In this document: positions 436 to 61,901 of the stretch, piece by piece
How positions within the stretch are numbered: the stretch's first letter is position 1
How the letters are laid out: each line of letters opens with the position of its first letter
Assembly: GCA_947647505.1 (NCBI GenBank)
Contig: CANSKO010000006.1
Location: 62,001-126,000, forward strand
Direction: 5' to 3'
From: an uncultured Roseburia sp.
GTDB taxonomy: Bacteria > Bacillota > Clostridia > Lachnospirales > Lachnospiraceae
Length of the DNA: 64,000 nt
The notes under the pieces: generated by a model
The model's input: the letters and a program-made list of their open reading frames with translations, nothing else
Told to the model about the DNA's origin: nothing
The model's database searches: none
Program-made: the position numbers and the translations under genes

Positions 436-1539
436 ATGCAGCCGGAGGCATATATGGAGCTTGCCATTGCGGAAGCGAGAAAGGGCGAGGGGTTTACGAA
501 TCCAAATCCCATGGTCGGGGCCGTCATTGTAAAAGAGGGGAGGATTCTTGCAAGGGATTACCATCATGCGTATGGGGGGTATCATGCGGAGCGCAATGCG
601 ATTTTAAACTGCAGGGAAGATCTTTCCGGCGCGCAGATGTACGTTACGTTAGAGCCCTGCTGCCATTATGGAAAGACGCCGCCGTGTACGGAAATTATTT
701 TAGAGAGCGGAATCAAAAAAGTATACGTCGGATCGATGGATCCCAATCCGCTCGTCTCCGGGAAGGGCGTGGAATTGTTAAAATCCCGTGGAATCGAGGT
801 GGAAACGGGGATCTGCGAAGAAAAATGCCTTGCGCTCAATAAAGTTTTTTTCCATTATATCCGGCATAAAACGCCTTACGTCGTTATGAAATATGCGATG
901 ACGGCGGATGGGAAGATCGCGACGAAGACGGGCGCGTCCAGATGGATCAGCGGGGAAGCGTCCAGAGAACGGGTCCATAACAGCCGCCATAAATATATGG
1001 GGATTATGGCGGGCGTCGGCACGGTTCTGACGGACAATCCGGCTCTGACGTGCAGACAGGAAGGGAAAAAAAGCCCTGTCCGTATCATCTGCGACAGCAG
1101 ACTGCGCACGCCGCTTACTTCTGAGCTTGTGCGGACGGCAGGGGAGGTTCCCGTTATTTTAGCTACGGCAGAAGGGGATGCGGAAAAGAAAAAGCCCTAT
1201 CTGGACGCAGGCTGTGAGGTTCTTACGATTTCGGAGAAGGACGGACATATTGATTTAAACGTCCTGATGCAAAAGCTGGGAGCGCTTGGCATTGACAGCA
1301 TTCTGCTGGAAGGCGGAGGAATGCTCAACTACAGCGCGCTCAAAAGCGGGATCGTGCACGCGGTGGAGCAGTATATTGCGCCGAAGCTGTTTGGCGGGAC
1401 CGCGGCGAAAACGCCCGTGACGGGCGAGGGCGTTGCATGGCCGGATCAGGCGTTTCGGCTGTGCCGTCCGAACGTGCGGCAGATCGGAGCGGATATTTTG
1501 ATCGAATGGGAGGTTGCGGCATGTTCACAGGAATCATAG
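436..1539 (+). CDS. ribD: Bifunctional riboflavin deaminase/reductase RibD
   Basis: RibD carries out the second and third steps of riboflavin synthesis from GTP: deamination of the pyrimidine, then NADPH-dependent reduction of the ribosyl chain. The N-terminal half has the zinc deaminase signature (HAERNAI, then PCCHYGKTPPC). The C-terminal half is a reductase with the ending ILLEGGGMLNYSAL. The protein is 367 aa, usual for the family. I chose the ATG at 436, seven bases after AAGGAAG (422-428), over an in-frame TTG at 415. It is the first gene behind the FMN riboswitch, and its end overlaps ribE by 19 bases. Confidence 0.95.
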   Translation: MQPEAYMELAIAEARKGEGFTNPNPMVGAVIVKEGRILARDYHHAYGGYHAERNAILNCREDLSGAQMYVTLEPCCHYGKTPPCTEIILESGIKKVYVGSMDPNPLVSGKGVELLKSRGIEVETGICEEKCLALNKVFFHYIRHKTPYVVMKYAMTADGKIATKTGASRWISGEASRERVHNSRHKYMGIMAGVGTVLTDNPALTCRQEGKKSPVRIICDSRLRTPLTSELVRTAGEVPVILATAEGDAEKKKPYLDAGCEVLTISEKDGHIDLNVLMQKLGALGIDSILLEGGGMLNYSALKSGIVHAVEQYIAPKLFGGTAAKTPVTGEGVAWPDQAFRLCRPNVRQIGADILIEWEVAACSQES

Positions 1540-2165
1540 AAGAGACGGGAACGGTTTTACAGATCGGACGGGAGAGCATCCGCATCCGGGCCGAAAAAGT
1601 TCTGGAGGGGACGAAGCCGGGAGACAGCATCGCCGTCAATGGCGTTTGCCTGACCGTTGTAAAAATCGGCGGCGCGGAGTTTACGGCCGACGTTATGCCG
1701 GAGACGTTTCAAAGGAGCGCGCTGGGGCGTCTGCGGCCGATGGGCGTCGTCAATCTGGAACGCGCGATGGCGGCCGACGGACGCTTTGGCGGACATATCG
1801 TATCAGGGCATATTGATGGAACAGGGACGGTTGACGGCATGCAAAACGACGGGAACGCGGTGCGCATTGGGATTGCCACGACGTCTGAAATTGCCCGCAG
1901 AATCGTAGAAAAAGGCTCTGTCGCCATAGATGGAATCAGCCTTACCGTTTCCGCGGTAAAGCAGGACTGGTTTGAAGTGTCCGTCATTCCGCATACGCTG
2001 CGGGAAACGAATCTGAAAGAAAAACGGCCGGGAACGATTGTCAATCTGGAGAATGACATGGTTGGCAAATATGTGGAGAAGCTTTTGCATGAAACGATGC
2101 GGTCGGGGGAAGAATCAAAGACAACGACGCTGACGAAGGAATTTTTGCTTCGGGCAGGATTTTGA
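1521..2165 (+). CDS. ribE: Riboflavin synthase, alpha chain
   Basis: Riboflavin synthase makes one riboflavin from two 6,7-dimethyl-8-ribityllumazine molecules. The 214-aa protein opens with the invariant MFTGIIEE, and the two lumazine-binding halves both show the family pattern, with SGHIDGTG closing the first half and [13 protein letters not shown] ending the second. The start lies inside ribD, in another frame, which suggests translational coupling. The order D-E-BA-H matches Bacillus and clostridial operons (established knowledge). Confidence 0.95.
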
Positions 2166-2182
2166 GACGGGAGGATAAAAGA

Positions 2183-3379
2183 ATGGCATACAGTTCGGTG
2201 GAAGAGGCAGTAAATGAAATTCGTCAGGGAAAGATCATACTGGTGACAGACGATGAGGACAGAGAAAACGAAGGCGATTTTATCTGCGCCGCGGAATTTG
2301 CAACGACGGAAAATGTAAATTTTATGGCGGTGCATGGAAAAGGTCTGATCTGCATGCCCATGGGCAGGGAGCTTGTGGAAAAGCTGAAGCTGCCGCAGAT
2401 GGTATCGCATAATACGGACAATCATGAAACGGCGTTTACCGTTTCGATTGACGCTGTAGAGACGACGACGGGAATTTCTGCAAAGGAGCGCGGAATTACG
2501 GCGAGAAAATGTGTGGAGGAAGGGGCTGGGCCAAAAGATTTTCGCAGACCGGGCCATATGTTTCCACTGCTGGCAAAAGAAAACGGCGTGCTGGAGCGGG
2601 AAGGGCATACGGAAGCGACGGTAGATCTGATGCGTCTGGCAGGATTAAAAGCGTGCGGCCTGTGCTGCGAGATTATGCGCGAGGACGGCACGATGATGCG
2701 TACGCCGGAGCTGATGCGGCTGGCTGAGAAATTTCAGATCAAAATGACGACGATACAGGCGTTAAAGGAATACCGGAAAGTGCATGATAAGCTGGTTGCA
2801 TCCGTTGCGGTTACGAAGATGCCGACGCGTTATGGCGAATTTATGGCGCATGGATACGTCAATCGCTTAAACGGGGAGCATCATGTGGCGCTGGTAAAGG
2901 GAGAGATCGGGGATGGAGAAGAGATTTTATGCCGCGTGCATTCCGAGTGCCTGACCGGAGACGCGTTTGGATCGATGAAATGCGACTGTGGCCAGCAGCT
3001 GCAGGCGGCAATGCGTCAGATTGAAGAGGAAGGAAGGGGGATTTTACTGTATCTGCGGCAGGAAGGCCGCGGAATTGGACTGCTGAACAAGCTGCGCGCC
3101 TATGAACTGCAGGATGGCGGCATGGATACGGTGGAAGCCAATCTTGCGCTTGGATTTGAGGAGGATTTGAGGGAATACTATATCGGCGCGCAGATTCTGC
3201 GTGATCTGGGGGCAAAAAGCCTTCGTCTGCTGACGAATAATCCCAAAAAAATCGACGGACTTTCCGCGTTTGGCTTAAGCATCAGAGAGCGGGTTCCCAT
3301 TCAGATGGAGCTTACGCCGTTTGACCGTTATTATATGAAGACGAAACAACGGAAGATGGGGCATATGTTAAAATTTTAA
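2183..3379 (+). CDS. ribBA: Bifunctional DHBP synthase / GTP cyclohydrolase II RibBA
   Basis: This fused enzyme supplies both precursors of riboflavin. Residues about 1-200 make 3,4-dihydroxy-2-butanone 4-phosphate from ribulose 5-phosphate ([11 protein letters not shown], then GHTEATVDL). Residues about 205-398 open GTP (zinc motif [17 protein letters not shown], then [10 protein letters not shown]). The length of 398 aa is typical. ATG 2183 follows GGGAGG (2168-2173) and is preferred to a TTG at 2162 that overlaps ribE. Confidence 0.95.
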
Positions 3380-53019: not shown

Positions 53020-53700
53020 ATGCAGCGTACAAATCATTTTGGCATCCGGGAAGATGTGGACAGTTGGAAGACGGTCATGCTGATTTATAACAGCGCACTG
53101 AAAGAAGTGGGAACGAAGCTTGAAATATTAAATGATGAATTTCAGCATGTACATCAGTATAACCCGATTGAATACATCAAATCCAGAATCAAATCGCCGG
53201 AAAGCATTGTGAAGAAGCTGAAGCGCAATGGACGGGAGAGCACGATTTCCAATATGACGGAATATGTCAATGATATTGCGGGGATCCGCATCGTCTGCTC
53301 GTTTGCGTCAGATATTTATCGGATGGCGGAGATGATTGGCAGACAGAACGATCTGACGGTAGTATCGGTAAAGGATTACATTAAACATCCTAAGAAAAGC
53401 GGGTATAAAAGCTATCATATGCTGGTCAGTATTCCGATTTTTTTATCCGATTGCGTGGTGGACGCGAAAGTAGAGATACAGATTCGTACGATAGCGATGG
53501 ATTTCTGGGCAAGTCTGGAGCATAAGATCTATTATAAATTTGAAGGTAACGCGCCGGAGTATATCAGCAGGGATCTGCGGGAATGCGCCGGACTGGTGTC
53601 GATGCTGGATGCGAAGATGTTAAGCCTGAATGAGGCGATTATGAAAACAAAGGAAGAGCAGGAAGAGAGGCAGGGAAAAGAAAAAGAGTTCACCGGTTGA
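53020..53700 (+). CDS. relQ: Small alarmone synthetase, RelQ type
   Basis: A 226-aa single-domain (p)ppGpp synthetase. The synthetase motifs are DIAGIRIVCSF, SGYKSYHMLV and VEIQIRTIAMDFWASLEHK. It lacks the hydrolase and TGS/ACT domains of full-length Rel. The C-terminal helix and size fit RelQ (YjbM) rather than RelP. It would make alarmone during wall or other stress without ribosome sensing (family knowledge). It is monocistronic between two terminators. Confidence 0.88.
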   Translation: MQRTNHFGIREDVDSWKTVMLIYNSALKEVGTKLEILNDEFQHVHQYNPIEYIKSRIKSPESIVKKLKRNGRESTISNMTEYVNDIAGIRIVCSFASDIYRMAEMIGRQNDLTVVSVKDYIKHPKKSGYKSYHMLVSIPIFLSDCVVDAKVEIQIRTIAMDFWASLEHKIYYKFEGNAPEYISRDLRECAGLVSMLDAKMLSLNEAIMKTKEEQEERQGKEKEFTG

Positions 53701-55407: not shown

Positions 55408-55437
55408 GCATAAAATGGAAATAGAAAGAAAATACTA
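55408..55437 (+). promoter_or_regulatory. Forespore (sigma-F/G) promoter of the germination genes
   Basis: GCATA (55408-55412) is a perfect forespore -35 (GywTA / gnATr). After exactly 15 bases GAAAATACTA (55428-55437) fits the sigma-F -10 at six of seven fixed positions, and its last seven bases AATACTA fit sigma-G at the 18-base spacing. The start would be near 55444. Confidence 0.65.
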
Positions 55438-55470
55438 AACAGGAACGGCAGGCGTCGGTTCCTGTTTTTT
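55437..55470 (+). terminator. Terminator of ispE
   Basis: AAACAGGAAC (55437-55446) pairs with GTTCCTGTTT (55458-55467), with T to 55470. Its 5' arm overlaps the end of the forespore promoter and the expected start site, so a transcript begun at that promoter would lack most of that arm. Confidence 0.85.
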
Positions 55471-55565
55471 GATGCAGGGAATCGAAAGCGCTTGCGTCTG
55501 CATGCCTGATGGGAGACGGCATCCTGATTTACCGGATGCGTATGAAATGGAATGGATGTGAAAAA

Positions 55566-57056
55566 ATGGAAAAGGAACTCAGTAAAAATAAGGAGGCGTT
55601 CCTGGCGCTTCTGGGAGAATCTGCGGATATCAAAAAGAAGACGATGCAGCTTGGCCTGAAACGGGACATTGGCTGTTTTATTGCCTATGTGGAAGTGACG
55701 GGCGGAAGCTTTCTGTTTGAAAATTCGGTAGTTGGAAAGCTGTTAAATCGGTTTTTATGTATGTCAAAACGGGAAATTATGGAGAGCCTTTCCAAAAATG
55801 CGCTTGGAATTTCCGATATGACGACATTCGATACGGTGGAGGAAGCGGCAGACGCAATGTTCACCGGAGATGTGATTTTGTTCGTGGACGGCTTTGATAA
55901 GGCGCTTAAGATTCCGGATAAAGGATATCCGGCGATGATGGTTCAGGAGCCGGCTTCTGAGAAAGTCATTCGCGGATCGCGGGAAGGTTTTGTGGATTCC
56001 ATAAAGGTCAATACGGCGCTGATTCGAAAGCGTCTGCGGACGCCAAAGCTGAAAGTAAAAGAAGCAAGAGTCGGAACGCGATCCAATACAAATGTAGACC
56101 TTGTGTATATGGAGGATCTGGTATATCCAAGCCTTTTGGAGGAGGTGGAGCGAAGAATTGGAAAGTATGAGATCGACGGCGTATTGGACAGCGGCGTAAT
56201 CGAACAGCTTTCCGAAGAGAAGTGGTATTCGCCGTTTCCGCAGTTTCAGACGACGCAGCGGCCGGACCGGGCGGCAATGGCAGTGTTGGAAGGAAGAATC
56301 GTCGTGCTGGTGGATAACTCGCCAACCGGCCTGATTCTTCCGGCCGATTACAATTCGTTTATTAAGACAAGCGATGATTATTATAATCGCTGGGAAATTG
56401 CTTCATTTGGAAGGCTGATCCGCTATATTGCTTCTTTTTTTGCAATGACGATACCGGGATTATACCTTGCGGTGACGAATTTTCATACGCAGATTCTGCC
56501 GACGACGCTGCTGTTGTCTTTTGCGGCGGCGCGGGAGGGCGTACCGTTTCCGGCCGTCGTCGAAGTCCTTCTGATGGAAATTGCGTTTGAACTGCTGCGG
56601 GAGGCGGGCGTACGGCTTCCGGGCGCAATGGGCAATACGATTGGAATTGTAGGCGGGCTGATTATCGGGCAGGCTGCCGTTGAAGCAAATATCGTAAGTC
56701 CGATCGTCGTCATCGTCGTGGCGTTTACGGCGCTTTGCTCGTTTGCCATTCCGAACGAAGAGTTTGCAACGGCATTTCGGCTTTTAAAGTTTGGGTTTAT
56801 TGCATTGTGCGCATGGCTTGGCTTCTATGGATTTTTATATGGACTGCTTTTGCTGCTGGTGCATCTTTCGCATTTAAAGAGCTTTGGCATACCGTATCTG
56901 ATGCCGTTTGTAGGGGCGGATTTAAACGGTTACGAGGATGAGCGGGATTCCCTGATCCGCCAGCCGTTGTTCTGGATGCGAAGACGTCCCGTCTATGCGA
57001 AAAGAAATCAGAGAATACGTTTGAGAAGGAAGGATGCAGATGTTTTCAAAAAATAA
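55566..57056 (+). CDS. GerA-family germinant receptor subunit A
   Basis: A 496-aa spore inner-membrane protein of the GerAA/SpoVAF family. The soluble N-terminal domain (about 1-270) has GTRSNTNVDLVYMEDLVYP and SPFPQFQTTQRPDRAA. Five or so membrane helices follow from about 285 (RYIASFFAMTIPGLYLAVTN), and a basic C-terminal tail ends the protein. GerA subunits are part of nutrient-gated channels that start germination. The start is not certain: ATG 55566 gives the family's usual N-terminus, but its ribosome site is weak and ATGs at 55509, 55536 and 55542 are in frame. It overlaps the GerAB-AC gene by 17 bases. Confidence 0.85.
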   Translation: MEKELSKNKEAFLALLGESADIKKKTMQLGLKRDIGCFIAYVEVTGGSFLFENSVVGKLLNRFLCMSKREIMESLSKNALGISDMTTFDTVEEAADAMFTGDVILFVDGFDKALKIPDKGYPAMMVQEPASEKVIRGSREGFVDSIKVNTALIRKRLRTPKLKVKEARVGTRSNTNVDLVYMEDLVYPSLLEEVERRIGKYEIDGVLDSGVIEQLSEEKWYSPFPQFQTTQRPDRAAMAVLEGRIVVLVDNSPTGLILPADYNSFIKTSDDYYNRWEIASFGRLIRYIASFFAMTIPGLYLAVTNFHTQILPTTLLLSFAAAREGVPFPAVVEVLLMEIAFELLREAGVRLPGAMGNTIGIVGGLIIGQAAVEANIVSPIVVIVVAFTALCSFAIPNEEFATAFRLLKFGFIALCAWLGFYGFLYGLLLLLVHLSHLKSFGIPYLMPFVGADLNGYEDERDSLIRQPLFWMRRRPVYAKRNQRIRLRRKDADVFKK

Positions 57057-59199
57057 TAAAATTTCGAAACGACAGATGTTTCGGCTTCTGACTTATGATC
57101 TGCTTGGAATCGGAACGCTGCTTTTGCCTGCGGCGCTTGCCAGACATGCAGGAAAAAACGGAATGGCTGCGATTGGAATCGGGATTGTGGCCGGAGCGCT
57201 CTATTGTCTGTTTTCCGGATGGGTCATTTCCTTTATGAAAGAAGGGGAGACGTATCCGGACTTTCTGAAACGGCGCCTGGGCACGTTTTTTGGCACGGCC
57301 GCGCTTGTGTTTTATGTGTTGTATTACATTTGCCTGGGCGGATACAGCACGTATATTTTTGGACATCTGATGGTAACGGATCTTTTGAAGGAGCAGTCGT
57401 TTTACTGGATCGTGGGCGGGATTTTGCTGCTGGCGGCATATGGGATTTTTCAGGGGATTGAAGGCCGGGCGCGCATTTATGAAATTCTGTTCTGGTTTTT
57501 GATGGCTCCGCTTTTTATCATGCTGTTTCTGGCGGCAAAGGACATTGAGCTGCCGCGTCTGTTTCCACTTTATGCGGAACCGTTTTCTTCTGCGGCAGTG
57601 GGCGGCTATTTCTGTTTTGAGATGTTTTCTCTGGGCGGGTTTGCATTTTTTCTGGCTCCTTTTGCAAAGAAAAAGGATGCGGTGAGAGGCGCGCTTTTGG
57701 CGGCCGTCGTATTCAGCGGCCTTGTGCTTTTTGCGATCTATCTGATCTTACAGGGGATTTTTGGAACGGAAGCGATGCGCGCGCTGGAATATCCGGCTGT
57801 TTCTCTGATGAGCATGGTGCAGATACCGGGCGGATTTCTGGAACGGCAGGACGCGATTATGGTGGCCGTCTGGTTTTTTACGGTGTTTGCGCTGTTAAGC
57901 AGCAGCATGTTTTATGCCGCAGAAAGCTTAAAAGCATTTACAAAAGGGAAAAAAGAAAAGCTTTTTATTGTATTGTCCGCAGCGGCGTTCTTTGGGATTG
58001 CCGTATGCAGCTATCGGTCGGCTGATTTTACGAACTGGCTGCATGACGTGTTTTTGTTTGCAGCGACGCCTCTTGTGGTTTTGATTCCGCTGGTCGTTGG
58101 CGTATGCGCAAAGTTTGGCCGAACGGGAAAGCGGGCGGCGCGATGCGTGGCGCTGCTCTGCCTTTTTCTGACGCTGTCCGGCTGCAGCACGTCGGAGCTG
58201 GAAAATCGGAAATTTCCGCTTGCCATGGGCGTGGATGCGCGCGAGGGCGGTTGTCTGATCAGCTACAAATTTCAGGATTTGTCCGCCATTGCCGATCAGA
58301 ATGCCAGCGCGCCGGATGGGACGGATTTTTTTATCGAGGATAGAGATTTTTTTACCGGGATTTCCAAATACGCCAATGATACGAACAAATTGCTGGATTA
58401 TAACCATATGAAAGCGCTTGTGTTATCGGAGGATTTTTTTGAAGAGGAAGAAAGCCTGATCGGTTTTTTGCAGGTTTGCGGAAAGGAAAGCCTGATTGCC
58501 AGGAATACGCTGCTGTTTCTGGCGGAGGATGCTGCGGAAATCCTTGCGTTGGATGAAAATCTGGATACGGCGATTGGGAGCTATCTGGAAGAAATGATGG
58601 AAAGCAGGGAAGATTATCAGTTAAAGGATGCCGTAACGCTGGGGGATTTGTACAACGATCTGGCGAATCAGGAACAGCTGCTTCTGATTCCGGTTCTGGC
58701 AGAAGAAGGCGGACTTCCGATTATACGCAGCTATTATGCGCTTTCCTGCGGCGCTGCAAAAGGAGAAATTGGCGTGCAGGAGGCTGCGCTTTCCTATCTG
58801 AGCCAGAATAAGCTGCGCACGCTTTCGTTTTCTTTGGATGAGCAGAATGCAGTCCGAATCAATCGGATCAAAGCAAAGGGAAGGTTTGTCGGAGGGAAAA
58901 AGCCCGTCTATCGCAGCAGCATTCGCCTGGAAGCCGTTGTAGAAAAAGAGCTGGATACGGGAAGCGGCGCGGGGGAAGCGCTCAGGCGGCAGATCAAGAC
59001 GCTGTTTGAACGGCAGATGAAGCAGAGTGCGGAAAACCTCCTGACTGCGCCGGGAATTGATCTGACAAACAGTTATTATAAGCTCGGATTGTATGGAGGC
59101 GGCATGTATAAGACGTATCAGGACGATCCGGAAGGCTATCTTTCCGATTTGCAGCTTGAATTTGAGGCGGAAGTGATTTTGCTCAATGAGAGAGGATAA
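57040..59199 (+). CDS. GerAB-GerAC fusion: germination permease joined to Ger(x)C lipoprotein
   Basis: A 719-aa protein that combines two normally separate receptor subunits. Residues about 1-360 are a GerAB amino-acid-permease-type membrane domain with about ten helices. A basic loop (FGRTGKRAAR) and one more helix lead into the lipobox LTLSGCSTSEL with Cys382. From there on the sequence is a standard Ger(x)C protein (ENRKFPLAMGVDAREGG, ending YLSDLQLEFEAEVILLNERG). No stop or frameshift separates them. Lipobox and positive residues remain as in a free GerAC signal peptide. ATG 57040 is six bases after AAGGAAGG; 57034 is possible. Confidence 0.88.
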   Translation: MFSKNNKISKRQMFRLLTYDLLGIGTLLLPAALARHAGKNGMAAIGIGIVAGALYCLFSGWVISFMKEGETYPDFLKRRLGTFFGTAALVFYVLYYICLGGYSTYIFGHLMVTDLLKEQSFYWIVGGILLLAAYGIFQGIEGRARIYEILFWFLMAPLFIMLFLAAKDIELPRLFPLYAEPFSSAAVGGYFCFEMFSLGGFAFFLAPFAKKKDAVRGALLAAVVFSGLVLFAIYLILQGIFGTEAMRALEYPAVSLMSMVQIPGGFLERQDAIMVAVWFFTVFALLSSSMFYAAESLKAFTKGKKEKLFIVLSAAAFFGIAVCSYRSADFTNWLHDVFLFAATPLVVLIPLVVGVCAKFGRTGKRAARCVALLCLFLTLSGCSTSELENRKFPLAMGVDAREGGCLISYKFQDLSAIADQNASAPDGTDFFIEDRDFFTGISKYANDTNKLLDYNHMKALVLSEDFFEEEESLIGFLQVCGKESLIARNTLLFLAEDAAEILALDENLDTAIGSYLEEMMESREDYQLKDAVTLGDLYNDLANQEQLLLIPVLAEEGGLPIIRSYYALSCGAAKGEIGVQEAALSYLSQNKLRTLSFSLDEQNAVRINRIKAKGRFVGGKKPVYRSSIRLEAVVEKELDTGSGAGEALRRQIKTLFERQMKQSAENLLTAPGIDLTNSYYKLGLYGGGMYKTYQDDPEGYLSDLQLEFEAEVILLNERG

Positions 59200-60057: not shown

Positions 60058-60151
60058 TTTAACAGAGCGTGTCGGAAAGATGCATTCTGAAATGGAACTG
60101 GCGCACGATGCGCTCTGAAAGGAAATTGATGTCAGGGAAAGGAGTTTGTGT

Positions 60152-60583
60152 ATGGGCGTTGCGCTTTCAGATTTAATCGAACAGATTGGCCTGTCGGTAC
60201 AAAAAGCAAATGCTTCGATGGAACAGATGGCGGTTGCGGCGTATCTGGGGCAGGGATATGAAAATGAGAGGAACGGAGACGACGGGGAAGAAGAATTTGT
60301 TCCGGTTCGTTTTGCAATCCGCGTGCCAGACGCCGCCGGGGAGAAAACGATTCAGGCGCCGGTTACGGCGCTGATGCACCATACGTCGTTAAAACTGGAA
60401 CAGGTAGACGTAAAGCTGCGGTTTCTGATCGAGGAAAGCAAGGAAGATGCCGTTATGGTATCCTTAAAATCTCCGGAAGATGCAGCGTATTCCGTTCTGA
60501 GCGAGCTGTCCCTGCAGTTTAAGAGCGCGCCGCCTGCAGAAGGGATGGCGCGGGTCGATTATCATCATGTACAGGCATTGTAA
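60152..60583 (+). CDS. Small beta-rich protein, first gene of a DUF2589-like cassette
   Basis: A 143-aa soluble protein without signal peptide. The N-terminal 35 residues are helical (LSDLIEQIGLSVQKANASME). The rest looks beta-rich, with APVTALMHHTSLKLEQVDVK, which parallels the SAPLLSLVPVPAFTMDELVV block of the next protein. So the two may be diverged members of one family. ATG 60152 is eight bases after AAGGAG. Function unknown. It has no membrane part or catalytic motif. Confidence 0.7.
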   Translation: MGVALSDLIEQIGLSVQKANASMEQMAVAAYLGQGYENERNGDDGEEEFVPVRFAIRVPDAAGEKTIQAPVTALMHHTSLKLEQVDVKLRFLIEESKEDAVMVSLKSPEDAAYSVLSELSLQFKSAPPAEGMARVDYHHVQAL

Positions 60584-60598
60584 AAAAGGAGGATTGTC

Positions 60599-61231
60599 AT
60601 GGCGGAAATGAATGAAAGGAAAGAAATCATTGCGGCAGAACCGGAAGGGAAGGAAAATGGGAAGGGAGAAGGCTCCGGAGGCGCAGCAAATCAGTTTGTC
60701 GGACTGCCGATCGAGTCTTTGATCTGTGCGCCGATTCTGGCGGCGGCAAAAGGACAACAGGAGCTGACGGCAGTTTATATCGACGGCGTGAAGAAGCTGG
60801 CGTATGCGAATGGAGAGAAAGGGGCGGCAAATACGCTGGAGCTTGAATATTCCAGGCCTTACATAAAGGAAGATAAGACAATGGACAGTCAGAAATGTAA
60901 ATTGAGCGCGCCGCTGCTTTCTTTGGTTCCGGTGCCCGCGTTTACGATGGACGAGCTGGTGGTAGATTTTAATATGGAAGTGAAAAGCCAGGAGATGCAG
61001 AACGATAAGACGCAGACGGACGTTTCAACCAATGTGAAATACAATTCCTGGTTCGGACTGAGCGCTTCGATCAGCGGAAACGTTTCTTCTTCCAGCGAGC
61101 GCAAAAGGCAGACGGATTGCAGCGCAACGTATTCGATTCATGCGCGCGCCGTGCAGCAGCCGCCATCGGAGGGCATGGCAAAGCTGACCGCGCTGTTTGC
61201 ACAGGCGATGGAGCCGATACCGACGAAATAA
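60599..61231 (+). CDS. DUF2589-like protein
   Basis: A 210-aa soluble protein. After a charged Glu/Gly-rich start (1-30), FVGLPIESLICAPILAAAKG and LSAPLLSLVPVPAFTMDE with DFNMEVKSQE match my recollection of DUF2589. A flexible Ser/Asn-rich segment (about 140-170) precedes the final strand ATYSIHARAVQQP. The family has no settled function known to me. It starts 15 bases after the previous gene with AGGAGG and is followed by a Cys-motif protein 19 bases later. Confidence 0.72.
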   Translation: MAEMNERKEIIAAEPEGKENGKGEGSGGAANQFVGLPIESLICAPILAAAKGQQELTAVYIDGVKKLAYANGEKGAANTLELEYSRPYIKEDKTMDSQKCKLSAPLLSLVPVPAFTMDELVVDFNMEVKSQEMQNDKTQTDVSTNVKYNSWFGLSASISGNVSSSSERKRQTDCSATYSIHARAVQQPPSEGMAKLTALFAQAMEPIPTK

Positions 61232-61250
61232 AAGGGACGGGAGGGATTGT

Positions 61251-61901
61251 ATGTCGCTGTATGCAGGCGTCTGCGATATAAAAGCGGGCGTACAATTTGT
61301 AAATGTAATAGATTCTGCGCATGATCCGAATGTAAGGGAGTTCGATGTGGGAGGCATTGGAAACGGGCCGATTGGCTGGCTGGGACTCTGGAAAAGAATG
61401 GCCGGAGGCGGAAGAGATGTGAACTGTATCGCGTGCAATAGTTCCAAAGCGACAGTAGGCGGCCATATTGTGCTCAGGGGTTCCGACGGCAGCGGGCCAG
61501 ATCGTTACGCGCAGAATCTGGAGGATTCCAACAGGGTCTTTATCGCGCCAATCTGTTATGCATGCAATGCGTCGGATTTTACAGACGGCAGGGAGCGCAT
61601 TTTTCGGGCAAAATACGATAGCAGGCTTGTGCATTTGTGCGCGTTTATGAAGGATTCTCTGCCTCCCTATGACTGTTCGAGCGCATTTTGGGAAATGGAA
61701 GACGATGCATATCAGGAATGGGAGGCAGAGCGTTATCGCGCCTATGAGGAAGAACGGCAGAGAAAGAAAGCGGAGCAATCAAAGCTGGATGCAGAGGACG
61801 CCATTATTTTGAGCGCTTCCGCACCTTCCATACCTGCTTTTCGTGCGGGTTCTTCCCGTATTTCCAGACCCGTTCACTGTTCGTGCTGCTCCGGACACTA
61901 G
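61251..61901 (+). CDS. Treble-clef (HNH-like) cysteine protein of the DUF2589 cassette
   Basis: A 216-aa protein. CIACNSSKATVGGHIVLRG followed by FIAPICYACNASD gives a CxxC - GGH - CxxCN pattern typical of treble-clef or HNH-like zinc proteins. A Glu/Arg coiled coil (about 150-185) and a Ser-rich tail ending PVHCSCCSGH (three more Cys) follow. The usual HNH catalytic residues are not all evident, so nuclease activity is unproved. ATG 61251 follows GGGAGGG. It closes the three-gene cassette; I found no terminator before the next promoter. Confidence 0.7.
   Translation: MSLYAGVCDIKAGVQFVNVIDSAHDPNVREFDVGGIGNGPIGWLGLWKRMAGGGRDVNCIACNSSKATVGGHIVLRGSDGSGPDRYAQNLEDSNRVFIAPICYACNASDFTDGRERIFRAKYDSRLVHLCAFMKDSLPPYDCSSAFWEMEDDAYQEWEAERYRAYEEERQRKKAEQSKLDAEDAIILSASAPSIPAFRAGSSRISRPVHCSCCSGH

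Follow-up and report, generated by a model that had tools for sequence, protein, structure and literature searches.

How is a spore germinant receptor made when its permease subunit GerAB and its lipoprotein subunit GerAC are encoded as one continuous chain? The question is raised by a fused gene, gerAB::gerAC, at positions 57040..59199 (+) of a 64,000-nucleotide stretch from an uncultured Roseburia sp. of the Lachnospiraceae (contig CANSKO010000006.1). This whole stretch is called the window below. The first-pass annotation, made from the letters alone, had suggested that the signal peptidase LspA could cut the chain at an internal lipoprotein signal and release a lipid-anchored GerAC. On the evidence gathered here from the gene and its relatives, we hold it likely that the gene product is a B–C polyprotein which is lipidated by Lgt and cut by LspA.

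One frame, two subunits

The open frame extends from 57040 to 59196 (+) and is closed by TAA at 59197-59199. Its 719 codons plus stop encode a product of 719 amino acids and 79.6 kDa, which is matched by both Pfam and NCBIfam models. The GerAB part (57040..58104, +) displays ten hydrophobic peaks and the APC fold. Residues 7-318 match PF03845 Spore_permease with 117.2 bits (cut-off 23.4) and residues 6-364 match TIGR00912 with 153.3 bits (cut-off 139.55), which places this part in the endospore germination permease family. The GerAC part (58183..59196, +) comprises 338 amino acids and 37.6 kDa when counted from Cys382. Here residues 385-553 match PF25198 Spore_GerAC_N with 85 bits (cut-off 27), and Foldseek matches the AlphaFold model of the fused protein to the GerBC crystal structure 3n54 (E = 1.1e-8). 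From these two results we conclude that the C part is a C subunit with the GerAC fold. Against such membership stand the C-terminal GerAC model PF05504, for which we found no match in the window's genome, and TIGR02887, which scores the C part with 72.5 bits and thus under its cut-off of 163.25. Sequence searches of the PDB revealed no relative (one gave no match, another five matches with other names and E values of 0.11 or worse), and the rows listed by a second structure search were APC- and LeuT-type chains, GerBC not being among them.

The window protein comprises the GerAB and GerAC subunits of a GerA-type nutrient germinant receptor in one frame. GerA-type receptors have B and C as separate genes, whereas here the frame is continuous. 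Because sister loci carry either form, this separation is an organisational trait rather than a defining one.

The first-pass annotation had named a sequencing error that hides a stop codon between the two halves as fatal to its idea. We found the gene in frame across the junction in all 15 genus genomes, among them the window's own; the other 14 fused genes are 57-68% identical to the window's. A sequencing error or a stop codon lost in one genome is ruled out by these loci, and the fusion as a single odd case by the many fused loci beyond the genus. One might still suspect an assembly artefact or a decaying pseudogene, as the window's genome is 86.8% complete and two of the 15 genus loci carry a single stop within B, at a distance from the junction (one of the 15 ends at a contig edge). 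This explanation is hardly credible, however. Besides the intact junction at such divergence, the fusion also occurs in records titled as strains (among them Roseburia sp. 1XD42-69 and Lachnospiraceae bacterium strain MGB1), the last 250 residues of which are identical to genus loci, and a GerAA match is located upstream of all the 76 distinct fused frames held by the 206 loci of our survey. The fusion, as first proposed for the window, is indeed real.

A putative lipoprotein signal inside the chain

The junction reads CAKFGRTGKRAARC / VALLCLFLTLSG / C382. Its first element, residues 356-369 (58105..58146, +), is a positively charged loop with five K/R and no D/E, predicted to lie inside, and would serve as the n-region of the signal. 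It is followed by a putative h-region of 12 residues (370-381; 58147..58182, +) and by the cysteine of the lipobox LTLSG|C382, encoded by TGC at 58183..58185 (+). Lipoboxes follow the motif [LVI][ASTVI][GAS]C, and with L-S-G-C, the charged n-region and an h-region of this length the junction has the sequence features of an LspA substrate. It departs from such a substrate in position: the signal is internal (residues 356-381) rather than at the N-terminus of the chain. In the AlphaFold model the junction appears as a low-confidence stretch between two confident domains, the predicted local distance difference test (pLDDT) being below 50 at residues 373-391.

The cysteine is kept in all 15 genus loci. 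Among the 76 fused proteins, 71 carry [GAS]C at the junction, with glycine at position -1 in 64 of these; for separate GerAC proteins the numbers are 98 of 103 and 93 of 98. In random windows of the same size from the same proteins, [GAS]C was met by chance in a mean of 5.0 of 76 and in at most 12 (200 draws). The spacing between the last charged residue and the cysteine has a median of 16 residues in fused and separate GerAC alike. Conservation of Cys382 among fused relatives had been proposed earlier as a check of the polyprotein idea; the cysteine is conserved in most of them, which supports the idea. The invariant G381-C382 in our alignment A1 is no evidence in this respect, since A1 was built from chosen fused rows which all have the cysteine.

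How the segment evolves is also informative. For the genus we compared 13 of the 15 rows (the two with a broken B half were left out), of which 75 of the 78 pairs fall within the identity band. Mean pair identity of the h-region (positions -14 to -4) is 13.5%, as against 65% for the B body and 61% for the C body, and the ten B helices are 49-87% identical over all 78 pairs. Residue -1 is identical in all 75 compared pairs. The h-regions of separate GerAC signals show 17.2% identity at like divergence. Judged by these identities, the junction segment evolves like a removable signal peptide and unlike a B helix.

With the ten helices placed on the hydrophobic peaks, we count 24 K+R in inside loops and 8 in outside loops, five of the 24 belonging to the loop that precedes the segment. 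The positive-inside rule thus has the chain enter the junction from the inside, so that the extra segment is predicted to run outward and Cys382 to lie on the outer face. This is the orientation on which the first-pass annotation had made the cut depend.

We suggest that the receptor is made in the following steps. GerAB would be inserted as a bundle of ten helices with both ends predicted inside. The K/R-rich loop and the short hydrophobic stretch after helix 10 would then act as an internal lipoprotein signal which sends GerAC outward. Both Lgt and LspA are encoded in the window's genome, and Lgt (GerF) is described as acylating C subunits (PMC11841064). Lgt could add diacylglycerol to Cys382, and LspA could then cut between G381 and C382 to give a GerAB of 42 kDa, which keeps a short hydrophobic tail, and a lipid-anchored GerAC of 37.6 kDa; for this predicted cut (42.1 + 37.6 kDa) the masses, the cysteine number and the coordinates given in the first-pass annotation are correct. 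Finally, both pieces would assemble with GerAA as they do in receptors from separate genes. Since cutting would restore the usual mature subunits, fusion of the genes would leave hardly a trace in the receptor, which would explain how the two gene forms could be switched at least 15 times with the lipobox retained. In the minority of fusions that lack the cysteine, it is probably an anchor helix that tethers the GerAC domain.

Fused and separate genes among the relatives

A survey of Lachnospiraceae genomes for the same fusion had also been called for. A family search with the window protein gave a match in 83 of 397 genomes. The 80 family loci beyond the genus, one per genome and all picked by their match to the window protein, comprise 37 fused loci, 40 with B and C in separate frames and three which are incomplete or unmatched (L033, L086, L096). 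The fusion is thus recurrent. The remaining loci were retrieved by an order search (392 genomes), a phylum GerAC search (398 genomes) and from named contigs. By group code 59 of the 76 fused frames belong to the window's family; three come from records titled Lachnospiraceae or Roseburia, 13 from family f144 of the same order and one from a third family, f154. Outside the 76 there are nine additional fused frames, two of which look like copies of one gene; at the junction of all nine, GC or an equivalent lipobox can be seen by eye. Of the 29 phylum loci (L211-L239) none is fused; the search that gave them was limited to two candidates per genome and to the best matches. Because the fusion is not seen there, separate B and C genes are probably the ancestral state. 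Outside the order, two B frames of greater length (L240, L241) were rejected, as they lack a GerA domain and resemble open frames under no selection. At L254 (family f157; frame 1434-2888, minus strand) GerAB continues into LALATGC and then the opening residues of a GerAC domain, followed by a short C part with a weak Pfam match under the cut-off; this is possibly another fusion or a broken one. A matching genome, G253, lies outside the loci read. In many family loci the GerAC part consists of the N-terminal domain alone, for example in L049, L051 and L058 (separate) and in L031 (fused); when separate, such frames have about 210-260 residues.

To count the changes between the two forms we used trees of B plus C. 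Of the 103 separate GerAC, 19 were set aside as no B directly upstream was paired with them, and three of 160 pairs were dropped as too short (fragments from L004, L007 and L152, in which the B half is broken; the names are our own reading). After 57 of 157 rows had been left out as near-copies, a tree of 100 rows (50 fused, 50 separate; quick method) gave 24 state changes, 19 of which are forced by starred branches. A more careful tree of 68 rows, from which 32 more were omitted (chosen long branches, loosely placed rows and the phylum rows), gave 16 changes with 15 forced by starred branches and a bootstrap range of 15-16. Fusion and fission are not distinguished in these counts. According to the trees, fusion or fission has switched at least 15 times.

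In the sister pairs L021/L210, L176 (record titled Lachnospiraceae bacterium A2)/L192 and L031/L049 the first member is fused and the second separate. Helix 10 of the L021 GerAB leads directly from its end into a segment which resembles the GerAC signal of L210. In separate pairs the C start, chosen by the best Shine–Dalgarno (SD) match, precedes the last base of the B stop codon by a median of 4 nt, and 70 of 81 pairs overlap. As B and C share the frame in only six of the 81, joining usually needed a frame change.

Could GerAC then also, or even mainly, come from a translation restart inside the fused gene? An in-frame ATG 13-45 codons ahead of the cysteine is present in 36 of 71 fused genes, and 20 of the 71 have a start with a charged n-region and an SD match of at least 4 bases. 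The latter is found in 97 of 98 separate genes, however, and when at least 5 bases are demanded the numbers are 2 of 71 against 68 of 98. Without the charge rule, starts with a 4-base SD number 27 in the fused genes, below the 34.2 +/- 3.5 counted at positions drawn at random from their B parts. In the window gene the 60 codons ahead of the cysteine contain no ATG, and this gene is not among the 20. We therefore reject internal re-initiation as the main route to GerAC, and consider a restart in any role very unlikely. As internal starts with an SD are rarer than in separate genes or at random positions, fused genes most likely yield GerAC through translation of the joined frame.

Several observations weigh against a general cut by LspA. 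Firstly, five of the 76 fused proteins have no cysteine (L071, L084, L093, L094, L095; L095 is unrecognised by Pfam and rests on our own profiles), and these fusions seem to imply a viable tethered form. The B match falls short of its end in nine proteins, namely these five and L035, L039, L044 and L078, which keep the cysteine, while all 67 with a full-length B match keep it. A Fisher test of this association gives p = 7e-6 but ignores kinship: four of the five Cys-less rows stand in one clade with a support of 91, not starred. Secondly, conservation of the lipobox would be equally expected from lipidation without cutting. Thirdly, an anchor helix that faces lipid could likewise change quickly, the comparison above having been made with B helices and GerAC signals. 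Finally, some structure alignments extend to model residues 380-382 opposite residues 398-409 of APC transporters, as if the h-region had a seat like that of a helix 11, at low confidence in this part of the model.

Ahead of the C domain, each of the five Cys-less proteins shows a single hydrophobic stretch (16-28 residues) which looks like a lasting anchor. From the short B matches and the spacings we read that helices 9 and 10 were lost as a pair in the nine short-B proteins, so that the C domain would stay outside. An uncut tethered form thus probably exists too, and the five may mark a route from a cut polyprotein to a permanent tether. Loss of the cysteine is not peculiar to fusions, since separate GerAC lose it as well: five of 103 were scored without it. 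Going by their sequences, three of these are true losses, whereas in one the cysteine is slightly out of place and another is a truncated protein.

Could the window protein itself remain uncut? Cys382 might be lipidated by Lgt and the polytopic chain spared by LspA, so that GerAC stays joined and lipidated. The conserved lipobox, the presence of Lgt and the existence of apparently tethered Cys-less fusions are compatible with this. Yet the length and the fast evolution of the h-region match ordinary GerAC signals, and we see no known reason for LspA to spare an outward helix after an inside loop; we regard this explanation as unlikely. The first-pass annotation had offered another, an uncut fusion with an 11th transmembrane helix, in which the lipobox would be left over from a separate gene. 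The single hydrophobic stretch of the Cys-less five points in this direction, as do fold alignments in which residues as far as 381 can be placed against AdiC residues 408-409. A leftover lipobox should, however, decay over so many switches and such deep divergence instead of being kept in most fused proteins. Moreover, the 12 residues of the window's h-region are short for a span, the AlphaFold model has no confident helix there, and the segment does not evolve as a B helix does. An eleventh helix appears quite improbable to us.

We thus keep to the polyprotein reading for the window gene. For the group as a whole, we lean towards the view that many Lachnospiraceae and some relatives in the order have B–C polyprotein receptors which LspA would cut at the internal lipobox and which would have arisen or reverted at least 15 times. 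In an uncut side branch, GerAC would have become a permanent outside domain of a GerAB without its last two helices.

Known systems and the surroundings of the operon

In Bacillus subtilis GerA, GerAA, GerAB and GerAC come from separate genes, B being a 10-helix protein of the APC type and C a lipoprotein (PMC8617281, PMC11841064, PMC8038838). The window has the same three subunits with the same types of B and C, but its B and C form one chain and the lipoprotein signal of C is internal. For B. subtilis GerKC, which has a long hydrophobic region, removal by LspA is described as unlikely (PMC11841064). Such an uncut segment parallels the tethered Cys-less fusions, although GerKC is encoded by a separate gene and has a cysteine whereas the tether of the fused proteins is joined to GerAB. 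Lactococcus OpuABC is described as a permease with a covalently linked, fused substrate-binding domain (PMC11065425). Both systems join an outside domain, elsewhere soluble or lipid-anchored, to its permease; OpuABC is an ABC importer and stays linked. The nearest analogue in principle is Bradyrhizobium fbcH, which reportedly encodes cytochrome b and c1 as one precursor with a polytopic protein, an internal signal and an outside domain. This precursor of a respiratory complex is said to be cut by signal peptidase I, without a lipid.

The GerA receptor family is known, and the joined form with an internal conserved lipobox appears to be new to the parts of the open-licence literature covered by our search. 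We found no report of such a fusion there, nor a precedent for LspA cutting inside a polytopic chain, most subscription journals being outside this literature. If the cut occurs, the fused proteins would form a bacterial polyprotein family in which signal peptidase II acts within a polytopic chain. Receptors are predicted to be pentamers or hexamers of A-B-C units (PMC11841064, PMC13170314), so that one B is needed per C. Fused forms would mean that equal amounts of B and C are made per receptor. That the fusion serves to fix the 1:1 ratio, as had been suggested for the window, is unproved since separate genes do as well. In fused forms the N-terminus of C would start next to the C-terminus of B, which is a constraint for models of the pentamer or hexamer, and structural work would have naturally tethered receptors in the Cys-less forms. 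One survey describes gerAC as not detected in Anaerostipes (PMC12888040), which its identity cut-off may explain; gene surveys that seek a separate gerAC may miss fused gerAC in gut spore-formers.

Directly upstream of the fused gene, as expected for a GerA-type receptor, is the A-subunit gene gerAA (55509..57056, +; PF03323 GerA, 574.6 bits), with a frame from 55509 and a probable start at ATG 55567. After the fused gene comes spoIIR (PF09551). A candidate forespore sigma-G-like promoter of the operon is located at 55408..55437 (+) with GCATAA, 17 nt and AATACTA, as judged by what we take to be the sigma-G consensus; among nine aligned genus sequences the element upstream of gerAA reads ATACTA in seven and ATAATA in two. 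Directly 3′ of it is a hairpin with a T run (55408-55470 for promoter and hairpin), the letters of which vary between species while the pairing, by eye, is apparently kept. This hairpin in the gerA leader is probably the terminator of the upstream gene overlying the leader. Elsewhere in the window, a small gene with a RelA/SpoT domain is found at 53020-53700, and two adjacent DUF2589 genes at 60146-61231 adjoin a frame at 61197-61901 without a Pfam match.

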